Shown piece by piece: positions 21,480 through 24,751 of a stretch of DNA of 64,000 bases. Made by a program: the position numbers and the translations under genes. Location of the stretch: positions 372,001 to 436,000 of the forward strand of contig NZ_AWXE01000004.1 of assembly GCF_000469155.1 (NCBI RefSeq). The letters run 5' to 3'. Each line of letters begins with the position of its first letter. Positions within the stretch are counted from its first letter, which is position 1. This DNA is from Candidatus Micropelagos thuwalensis (lineage in GTDB: Bacteria > Pseudomonadota > Alphaproteobacteria > RS24). The notes under the pieces were generated by a model. It ran no database searches, was not told where the DNA came from, and saw nothing but the letters and a program-made list of their open reading frames with translations.

Positions 21480-21508
21480 CTGAAACAGTTTCGTAACAAT
21501 TCGGTCAT
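21480..21508 (+). promoter_or_regulatory. Possible PhoB-binding repeats upstream of arsC
   Basis: Three units in 11-base phase, CTGAAAC, TCGTAAC and CGGTCAT, with AGTT and AATT spacers, resemble degenerate CTGTCAY Pho-box repeats (5, 4 and 6 of 7 matches). They lie just upstream of a TTGACA/TTTAAT promoter. The match is imperfect and judged by eye. Confidence 0.35.
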
Positions 21509-21600: not shown

Positions 21601-22047
21601 ATGAAGCATATTCTTTTTTTATGTACTGGAAATAGTTGCAGATCCATTCTGGCTGAGGCCTATGTTAACCATCAATATAAGAATGTCTGGCAAGCTCATA
21701 GCGCCGGAAGCACCCCGACTGGGGCTGTTCATCCAATGGCTCTGGACGTGTTAAAAGGCCGAGATATTTCAGTAGATGGTTATCACTCCAAAAACTGGGA
21801 TGTTTTCGGTTTGCAAAGTGGCAAGATTCCTATGGTAGAAATGGATTATATTGTCACAGTTTGTGACAATGCCGCTGGGGAAGCCTGTCCTGTTTGGCCA
21901 GGACATCCGGCGACCCATCACTGGCCCTTCCCTGATCCTGCAAAATTTTCTGGAGACAAGGCATCCACTCGAGAATATTTCGAGGATGTTTGCGACATGA
22001 TTATCCGTAAAATTGACGATGAATTAACAACCAGGTTGAAAAGCTAA
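21601..22047 (+). CDS. arsC: Arsenate reductase, thioredoxin-coupled LMW-phosphatase type
   Basis: The protein has 148 residues from ATG 21601; the in-frame upstream extension lacks family similarity. The phosphatase loop C8-TGNSC-R14-S, the HSAG segment after the first helix and the redox cysteines C88 and C96 (VCDNAAGEACP) identify the thioredoxin-type arsenate reductases, which turn As(V) into As(III). A DP loop is present as HWPFPDPAK. The next gene is an aquaglyceroporin that can release arsenite. No arsR, arsB or acr3 lies nearby, and the Pho-like repeats upstream hint at control by phosphate status instead of arsenite. Confidence 0.9.
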   Translation: MKHILFLCTGNSCRSILAEAYVNHQYKNVWQAHSAGSTPTGAVHPMALDVLKGRDISVDGYHSKNWDVFGLQSGKIPMVEMDYIVTVCDNAAGEACPVWPGHPATHHWPFPDPAKFSGDKASTREYFEDVCDMIIRKIDDELTTRLKS

Positions 22048-22115: not shown

Positions 22116-22781
22116 ATGATTTTTGATGTGCGTAAACTTGCCAGCGAATTTATCGGCACCCTTTTTCTGGTTGCCACAGTTATCGGTTCAGGAATCATGG
22201 CCGAGTCACTTGCTGAAGGTAATGCGGCAGTGGCTTTACTCGGCAACACGCTTGCCACCGCAGGCATACTTTATGTGCTGATAACCTGTTTAGGGCCGAT
22301 TTCAGGTGCTCATTTTAATCCGGCAGTCAGTTTTGTATTTTGGCTTAAAAGGGAACTCAGCACAGCTCGTTGTGCACTATATATTATCTTTCAGTGCTTA
22401 GGGGCCATCGCGGGGGTGATACTTGCCCATGCTATGTTTGACCAAAGCTTGATTCAGACCGGTGTCAAAATTCGATTTGGAAGCAATATATGGCTCTCAG
22501 AGAGTATCGCGACTTTTGGTCTTGTCGCTACGATACTGACAGGTCTAAGGCATAAACCCGAAAGTGTCCCCAGTCTGGTCAGTCTTTATATCACGGCAGG
22601 TTACTGGTTCACCTCATCAACGAGTTTTGCCAATCCGGCAGTAACATTGGGGCGAAGCTTTACGGATAGCTTTTCAGGCATCAGGCTGGTTGACATGCCC
22701 TTTTTCGTCATTTCTCAATTTTTAGGCGCGGCCTTTGCTTATTATCTGGTGAGGAAATTATTATCGACGAATAGAAGCTAA
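22116..22781 (+). CDS. aqpS: MIP-family channel, AqpS-like (probable arsenite exit channel)
   Basis: This 221-residue protein has six hydrophobic helices and two half-helix signature motifs: NPA at 68-70 (GAHFNPAVSF) and NPA at 173-175 (FANPAVTLGR), with the selectivity-filter Arg at 180. It follows arsC in the same direction. In rhizobia AqpS replaces the ArsB pump, letting arsenite leave down its gradient after ArsC reduces incoming arsenate. The context supports that role. A general glycerol or water channel is the alternative. Confidence 0.82.
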   Translation: MIFDVRKLASEFIGTLFLVATVIGSGIMAESLAEGNAAVALLGNTLATAGILYVLITCLGPISGAHFNPAVSFVFWLKRELSTARCALYIIFQCLGAIAGVILAHAMFDQSLIQTGVKIRFGSNIWLSESIATFGLVATILTGLRHKPESVPSLVSLYITAGYWFTSSTSFANPAVTLGRSFTDSFSGIRLVDMPFFVISQFLGAAFAYYLVRKLLSTNRS

Positions 22782-22806: not shown

Positions 22807-22824
22807 TTGTCACAATTTTGTAAT
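22807..22824 (+). promoter_or_regulatory. Pho-box-like direct repeat upstream of plcP
   Basis: TTGTCAC-AATT-TTGTAAT has the 7-4-7 layout of a Pho box, with 6 and 5 of 7 matches to CTGTCAY. It ends 22 bases before the plcP start, which implies a very short or leaderless transcript if it acts as a -35 substitute. Confidence 0.4.
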
Positions 22825-22846
22825 CGAATCCAACTATGAGATAGGC

Positions 22847-23677
22847 ATGGTTGATTCGCGTTTGTCTTTTGTAAATAACGACCAAATTGGACCGGCTAAA
22901 TATCGCACAATTTGGATCTCTGATATTCACCTCGGTACTGCAGGGTGCAAAGCAGCAAGTCTGCTTGATTTTCTCAAACGCACTGAAGCTGACACAATTT
23001 ATCTTGTCGGCGATATTATTGACGGCTGGCGTCTTAAAAAGAAATTTTTCTGGCCTCAGACCCATAATGATGTGATTCAAAAAATTCTTAGGAAAGCACG
23101 TAAAGGAGCGCGTGTTGTTTATGTGCCTGGTAATCATGATGAGGCGGCGCGTCAGTTTGTCGATATGAAATTTGGCGATATCGAAATTCTTGATGAAGCT
23201 ATCCACGAAACTGTCGATGGAAAGCGTCTCTGGGTCGTTCATGGCGACAAGTTTGATGGCATTATGCAACATGCGCGCTGGGTCGCTCATTTAGGAGATA
23301 TTGCCTATACAACTCTTCTGATCGTTAATAACTATCTCAACTCATTAAGGCGGTTGTTAAAAATGCCTTATTGGTCGCTTTCACAATATCTTAAGCATAA
23401 AGTTAAAGGCGCCATTTCATTTATTAGCACTTATGAAAAAGTGATGGTCACGCAAACCAAACGTAAAGGCTGCGACGGGGTCGTGTGCGGGCATATTCAT
23501 AAGGCTGAAATTCGTGACATTGATGGCATTCTTTATGCCAATGATGGAGATTGGGTGGAGTCCCTGTCAGCCTTGGTCGAGCATTATGATGGTCGTCTCG
23601 AAATTATCTATTGGGATCACATCGTAGAAATTCTGCCTGACGATGAAGACCTACCGGAAACGGCACTGGCCAGTTAA
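22847..23677 (+). CDS. plcP: Metallophosphoesterase of the LpxH-like/PlcP family (probable phospholipase C for lipid remodelling)
   Basis: This 276-residue calcineurin-like phosphoesterase has all metal motifs: SDIHLG (D26, H28), GDIID (D56), GNHDE (N96, H97), VHGD (H132) and GHIHK (H216, H218). Annotation pipelines usually call it UDP-2,3-diacylglucosamine diphosphatase. However, in marine alphaproteobacteria the same family sitting next to a GT4 glycosyltransferase is PlcP, which removes phospholipid headgroups during phosphate starvation to give diacylglycerol. The glycosyltransferase starts four bases after the stop here, and a Pho-box-like repeat lies upstream. A role in lipid A synthesis is the alternative. 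Confidence 0.8.
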   Translation: MVDSRLSFVNNDQIGPAKYRTIWISDIHLGTAGCKAASLLDFLKRTEADTIYLVGDIIDGWRLKKKFFWPQTHNDVIQKILRKARKGARVVYVPGNHDEAARQFVDMKFGDIEILDEAIHETVDGKRLWVVHGDKFDGIMQHARWVAHLGDIAYTTLLIVNNYLNSLRRLLKMPYWSLSQYLKHKVKGAISFISTYEKVMVTQTKRKGCDGVVCGHIHKAEIRDIDGILYANDGDWVESLSALVEHYDGRLEIIYWDHIVEILPDDEDLPETALAS

Positions 23678-23680
23678 ATT

Positions 23681-24751
23681 ATGAAAATTCTTATCATTAC
23701 CGACGCTTGGTTCCCTCAGGTAAATGGAGTGGTTCGCACATTGTTTAAAACCCGTGAGTGCCTTATTGCCGCCGGACACGATGTCGAGATGATCACCCCG
23801 GAGCCTTTTTTCTCCGTTCCTTTACCCAGTTATCCTGAAATACGTATTGCCCCTTTTGCAAACTCTGCCATACGGAAAAAAATCAGGGACTATGAGCCTG
23901 ATGCGCTTCATATCGCAACAGAAGGGCCTCTTGGCCTCGCCGCCCGTCGCTATGCAGTTAAAATAAATATGCCTTTCACAACCGCCTATCACACACGGTT
24001 TCCGGAATATGTTAAAGCCCGAACAGGCATCCCGCTGAGTGTTAGTTATGCATTCTTGCGTTGGTTTCATAAAAAATCAGAAAGAGTCATGGTGCCAACC
24101 CCTGCTGTAATCACGGCTTTAAAGGATTGGCGGATCGGCAATCCTGTTTTATGGCCACGCGGCGTAGATTTAGACCTTTTTAGCCCGGGAAAAGCCACAT
24201 TTCCGAGTAAGAAAAACCCTGTATATCTCTCGATTGGCAGGGTTGCAGTTGAAAAAAATTTAGAAGCATTTCTCTCGCTTGATTTGGAAGGTGAAAAATG
24301 GGTGGTCGGTGATGGCCCTGATTTGGAATCGCTTAAGAAAAAATACCCAGATGTTACCTTTTTCGGCATGAAATCAATGGAAGAACTGCCGGATTATTAC
24401 CGATCTGCAGATGTTTTTGTTTTTCCCAGCAAAACCGATACATTCGGTCTCGTTATGCTCGAAGCAATGGGATGCGGATTACCGGTTGCGGCTTATCCAG
24501 TAGATGGTCCGATTGATGTGTTAGGAAACACCAAATCTGCGGTCATGGACAATGATTTAAAAAAGGCTTGTGAGTCGGCATTACATATTTCCAGGAAATC
24601 AGCTCGAAAATATGCGGAAAACTTCAGCTGGCAGAGCGCAACAGAGATTTTTGCCTCCCATCTTGAAACCCGTTTAAAAAATTCAACAGCACCTCGCCCC
24701 AAAAAAAGCAGTGAAAATAAAATAGATTACAAGGTTTCGGCTCAATCATAA
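23681..24751 (+). CDS. agt: GT4 glycosyltransferase (probable Agt, diacylglycerol glycosyltransferase)
   Basis: This 356-residue GT-B enzyme opens with MKILIITDAWFPQVNGVVRT, typical of the MgtA/SqdX/Agt group. It carries the donor-site EX7E-like stretch DTFGLVMLEAMGCGLPV in the C-terminal half. It follows plcP by three bases, so they are co-translated. In the PlcP-Agt system it adds glucose or glucuronate to the diacylglycerol released by PlcP, making glycolipids that replace phospholipids. The sugar donor cannot be told from sequence. It lacks a signal peptide and should work at the inner face of the membrane. Confidence 0.8.
   Translation: MKILIITDAWFPQVNGVVRTLFKTRECLIAAGHDVEMITPEPFFSVPLPSYPEIRIAPFANSAIRKKIRDYEPDALHIATEGPLGLAARRYAVKINMPFTTAYHTRFPEYVKARTGIPLSVSYAFLRWFHKKSERVMVPTPAVITALKDWRIGNPVLWPRGVDLDLFSPGKATFPSKKNPVYLSIGRVAVEKNLEAFLSLDLEGEKWVVGDGPDLESLKKKYPDVTFFGMKSMEELPDYYRSADVFVFPSKTDTFGLVMLEAMGCGLPVAAYPVDGPIDVLGNTKSAVMDNDLKKACESALHISRKSARKYAENFSWQSATEIFASHLETRLKNSTAPRPKKSSENKIDYKVSAQS

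Follow-up and report, generated by a model that had tools for sequence, protein, structure and literature searches.

A predicted PhoB-controlled plcP-agt lipid-remodelling operon behind an arsC-aqp pair in Candidatus Micropelagos thuwalensis

Genomes of marine alphaproteobacteria may contain a metallophosphoesterase gene, named by automatic annotation as a lipid A enzyme, immediately ahead of a glycosyltransferase gene. Does such a pair in Candidatus Micropelagos thuwalensis belong to lipid A synthesis, or does it encode PlcP and Agt, which together exchange phospholipids for glycolipids when phosphate is scarce? We analysed a 64,000-nucleotide stretch of this genome (NZ_AWXE01000004.1, positions 372,001 to 436,000; hereafter the window), from an assembly of 1.96 Mb in five contigs that is 99.4% complete. 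The original prediction favoured the second answer, and our analysis supports the finding as real and that interpretation as largely right. The function of PlcP and Agt in low phosphate has been described previously (PMC4796936, PMC8231724, PMC8528852), and the pathway is therefore a known one, of which this locus is a new instance from the PS1 clade. A limited literature search, confined to main texts, found no PS1-clade account of the lipid swap.

Table 1. Genes and regulatory sites of the locus, in window coordinates
Feature	Position	Strand	Description
Pho-box-like site before arsC	21491..21508	+	TCGTAAC-AATT-CGGTCAT; weak and degenerate, 9/14
arsC	21601..22047	+	thioredoxin-type (LMW-phosphatase family) arsenate reductase; PF01451
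aqp	22116..22781	+	aquaporin-type channel; PF00230, two NPA motifs
Pho box of plcP	22807..22824	+	TTGTCAC-AATT-TTGTAAT; 22 bases before the ATG
plcP	22847..23677	+	metallophosphoesterase-type phospholipase C; 276 aa
agt	23681..24751	+	putative GT4 diacylglycerol glycosyltransferase; 356 aa

Exactly three bases (ATT) separate the plcP stop from the agt start, as had been predicted. The linkage was claimed to be tight, and it is: agt adjoins plcP in 68 of the 70 plcP loci of a class-wide set, a sample biased to close homologues of the window's PlcP. Proteins 90-93% identical to this PlcP are present in IMCC14465 and MED-G50, both of the PS1 clade, and in UBA6963, a metagenome-assembled genome (MAG) filed as Rhodobiaceae; another alphaproteobacterial MAG encodes a PlcP that is 88% identical.

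Identity of the phosphoesterase and the glycosyltransferase

The phosphoesterase carries the full set of metallophosphoesterase ligands claimed for it (D26, H28, D56, N96, H97, H132, H216 and H218), and all eight are invariant across 37 relatives. It shares 52% identity with a PlcP orthologue from S. meliloti whose gene adjoins sinI/sinR-type genes (an acyl-homoserine-lactone synthase and a LuxR regulator), the location of the characterised S. meliloti PlcP, SMc00171. Identity to P. aeruginosa PA3219 is 53%, and the neighbours of that protein fit PA3219-PA3218. E. coli LpxH, by comparison, aligns at about 25% identity over 118 residues. We constructed a tree of 49 proteins, as the original prediction had proposed; several of its branches are long and its deep part is rough, and within it five LpxH proteins split from the PlcP group with support of 100/99, the window protein clustering with characterised PlcP. 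The calcineurin-type metal site is complete and includes GNHDE, a motif found in the window protein and in both characterised PlcPs, whereas all five LpxH proteins have GNRDF.

The competing reading follows automatic annotation and takes the protein for a lipid A enzyme of the LpxH type. LpxH proteins are indeed the nearest solved folds to PlcP (Foldseek E 2.5e-11, 20% identity), the best NCBIfam match is an LpxH model, and database records give PlcP homologues an LpxH-type name, those annotated in a plasmid collection being labelled 'UDP-2,3-diacylglucosamine diphosphatase'. Fold similarity at about 20% identity fits a shared superfamily, however, and the NCBIfam match is below threshold, with two LpxH models scoring 42 bits against a cut-off of 134 and 34 against a cut-off of 190. 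The genome also encodes LpxI (144 bits) between lpxA and lpxB, in an lpxA-lpxI-lpxB block, and its sole other PF00149 protein does not resemble LpxH; we take that protein to resemble YmdB. With LpxI available for that step, plcP has no part left to play in lipid A synthesis. LpxH thus has the fold superfamily and metal motifs in common with PlcP, but it forms a separate clade with GNRDF in place of GNHDE, and the lipid A step is covered here by LpxI. Given the tree, the motif, the model scores and the presence of LpxI, we rejected membership in LpxH, a reading that we regard as extremely improbable. By sequence comparison the gene is assigned to the PlcP phospholipase family, in agreement with the original prediction; two outcomes named there as refuting it, placement within true LpxH and a genome with no other lpxH/lpxI, did not occur. 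That prediction had also expected the pair to be mis-annotated as LpxH plus a mannosyltransferase; the first label was encountered as described, but the second was not, the records examined reading 'glycosyltransferase family 1 protein' or 'glycosyltransferase family protein'.

The second protein was compared with the SAR11 glycosyltransferase GTcp, for which the motifs GRVAXEKN and FPSXTDTFG, a His104/Asp256 catalytic dyad and thirteen positions at which mutation destroys all or almost all activity have been described. The window protein contains GRVAVEKN and FPSKTDTFG, and its dyad corresponds to H104 and D253, offset by three from Asp256. Each of the thirteen functionally tested residues is kept, those in the C-terminal half being shifted throughout by the same three positions. 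Its identity to P. aeruginosa Agt1 (PA3218) is 49% over 327 aa, and its predicted fold is GT-B, for which the nearest structures are MshA, sucrose-phosphate synthase, BshA and PimB'. These features place the product, as predicted, in the Agt/GTcp group of GT4, an assignment made on motifs and homology. Its sugar specificity is not readable from sequence, since PA3218 is reported to make a glucosyl lipid only (PMC8528852), whereas GTcp makes three kinds of lipid.

Genes for both sugar donors appear to be present in the genome: a UDP-sugar dehydrogenase scores over its model cut-off, and GalU just under. A second nucleotide-sugar dehydrogenase gene (G000:C2:18124-19367; L110, L111) looks broken in the assembly, where it occupies two frames and contains two stops. 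DgkA, a diacylglycerol recycler, was sought in the host genome and none was found. Elsewhere, dgkA lies directly 3' of agt in three genomes (L081, L082 and L119) and near plcP in a fourth (L078). The assembly AG-915-O07, from an uncultured alphaproteobacterium, has a single ORF of 468 aa that joins Agt to a DgkA-like diacylglycerol kinase (L008, 947-2353).

Pho boxes and PhoB

The 7-4-7 Pho-box-like repeat that had been reported ahead of plcP is present at precisely the spacing claimed. It matches the generic consensus CTGTCATNNNNCTGTCAT at 10 of 14 positions. Sites scoring at least 10/14 number 49 in the window on both strands, and a shuffle test gave p ~0.13; by the generic consensus alone, the plcP box is not significant. 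We therefore dropped this score as sole evidence for a Pho box.

Two other observations put the plcP box beyond chance, namely its match to the pstS core and its conservation before plcP. The plcP box shares its 7+6 core, TGTCACANNNNTGTAAT, with the pstS promoter of the host genome. Only 0.08 occurrences of this core are expected per genome and three were found in the genome-wide scan that the original prediction had called for: one each at pstS, at plcP and ahead of a gene for a small outer-membrane-like protein. The site before plcP is kept in all five genomes of the genus that bear the gene, where it forms a conserved island in the intergenic alignment. A slightly wider pattern gave 20 matches across six genus genomes, located before plcP (five genomes), pstS (four), arsC (three), gspD (two) and the outer-membrane-like gene (two), with few elsewhere; a reversed-pattern control gave none. 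In a class-wide scan upstream of plcP, 6 of 42 loci had a Pho-box score with p < 0.05.

The genome encodes PhoB (307 bits, above the cut-off) in a region ordered phoR-box-pstS...pstB-phoU-phoB, and this, with the 7-4-7 box upstream of plcP, makes the pair a predicted member of the Pho regulon. It could alternatively be argued that the pair makes glycolipids constantly, with no response to phosphate starvation, and a 10/14 box is by itself not rare. Given that the plcP box is of the conserved pstS type and that the reversed pattern is absent, constant expression seems very improbable, and regulation of plcP-agt by PhoB is the reading we retain.

Other genes were also preceded by such sites. Three tandem Pho-box half-repeats lie ahead of a gspD-like gene, which encodes the secretin in a type II secretion operon (L054/L055, G000:C4:856895-856922), and another genome of the genus has kept one of these sites (L100). 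The small outer-membrane-like protein gene is preceded by a perfect pstS-like Pho box (L049, G000:C3:154267-154283), which recurs in another genome of the genus (G006, L096), and its product is possibly a phosphate-starvation outer-membrane protein.

The arsC-aqp pair and its distribution

Immediately upstream of the plcP box are two genes that, together with their own Pho-box-like site, the original prediction missed. The best model for the first, arsC_pI258_fam, scores 87 bits, below the 174-bit cut-off of this curated equivalog, and the protein has the motifs of the thioredoxin type, with a CX5R loop (CTGNSCRS) and a C-x7-CP cysteine pair. The aquaporin-type channel probably acts as an exit for arsenite, a role like that of AqpS. 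The arsC box is degenerate in the window and clear in relatives (ATGTCAC-AATC-GTGTCAT), with the exact pattern found before arsC in three of five genus genomes.

Each of the five plcP-bearing genomes of the genus keeps the order arsC-aqp-plcP-agt, as do two genomes from another genus in the family. In a family member that lacks plcP, arsC-aqp is preceded by a 12/14 box, which suggests that the arsenic pair is an older unit than the four-gene arrangement; the ArsC tree, which bears on whether arsC has a single origin in the family, is short and weakly supported. The genes might instead be chance neighbours with no shared role. Consistent with this, arsC and aqp each lie within ~6 kb of plcP in a minority of the class-wide loci (5 of 70 for either gene), and the arrangement of the two pairs varies between families. 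The constant order in two genera, the Pho boxes on both halves, the boxed arsC-aqp of the plcP-less genome and the occurrence of arsC and/or aqp near plcP in four other families all argue against it, and we consider chance proximity unlikely. The two pairs are better read, from their order and boxes, as one putative PhoB-driven low-phosphate block that would counter arsenate and strip phosphate from the membrane.

The same types of gene are clustered, in rearranged form, in several other families of alphaproteobacteria with small genomes. In a second family (L078), pst, phoU, phoB, arsC, aqp, dgkA, plcP and agt all fall within 10 kb. In a third family (L079), one genome has two plcP-agt pairs: an aquaporin gene follows the first, arsC is near the second, ppx- and ppk-like genes lie between them, and pst-like genes are also present at the locus. 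In our trees, plcP and agt of the genus group with another lineage (f9), apart from the family's other genera. A single origin of plcP-agt in the family gave p-AU values of 0.07 for PlcP and 0.03 for Agt, the group having been named once the first tree had been seen, so that the disfavouring of one shared origin is suggestive only. If a shared origin is disfavoured, this gene order may have come together on two occasions in the family. Because the plcP-agt pairs that stand behind arsC-aqp in two genera of the family are apparently not sisters, and rearranged forms occur in other families, we give roughly even chances to the broader proposal that the two pairs form one recurring PhoB-driven block of streamlined alphaproteobacteria that was assembled more than once.

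Proposed role and comparison with known systems

Taking together the family memberships, catalytic residues, gene order, conserved Pho boxes, PhoB, pst, LpxI and the sugar-donor genes, we propose that plcP-agt is very probably a PhoB-controlled operon for membrane lipid remodelling, with arsC-aqp co-induced upstream. When phosphate is scarce, phosphorylated PhoB would bind the box before plcP and switch on the pair. PlcP would then remove the phosphate headgroup of membrane phospholipids, yielding diacylglycerol and freed phosphate, and Agt would add sugar from UDP-glucose and/or UDP-glucuronate to the diacylglycerol, producing glycolipids that replace phospholipids. Under the same starvation signal, the second Pho box may turn on arsC-aqp; arsenate entering through the induced phosphate pump would be converted by ArsC to arsenite, which would exit the cell.

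These data put the poorly studied PS1 clade with the marine bacteria in which glycolipids are expected to take the place of phospholipids, and illustrate how standard annotation hides this swap behind a lipid A label. The link to arsC-aqp also provides a testable idea, that cells in low phosphate face arsenate entry and the phosphate cost of their membrane together.

Among known systems, PA3219-PA3218 of P. aeruginosa (PlcP-Agt1) has the same gene order and a Pho box, with identities of 53% and 49% to the window proteins, but neither arsC nor aqp is among the annotated neighbours examined, and Agt1 is reported to form a monoglucosyl lipid only (PMC8528852). In SAR11, an LMWPc_ArsC-aquaporin pair is described as an arsenic resistance module that is commonest in low-phosphate waters; the same two families stand side by side in bacteria of the low-phosphate ocean (PMC6426599). 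A limited search of that paper and of the lipid-remodelling papers found no tie between the SAR11 arsC-aquaporin pair and plcP-agt. The lipid genes also resemble the type 2 PlcP-Agt cluster of marine alphaproteobacteria, described in SAR11 HTCC7211 and Erythrobacter NAP1 (PMC4796936), which likewise has plcP directly followed by a GT4 agt and a putative Pho box upstream. The PS1 pair differs from that cluster in being preceded by a Pho-boxed arsC-aqp pair, and the PS1-clade proteins form their own branch in our trees.
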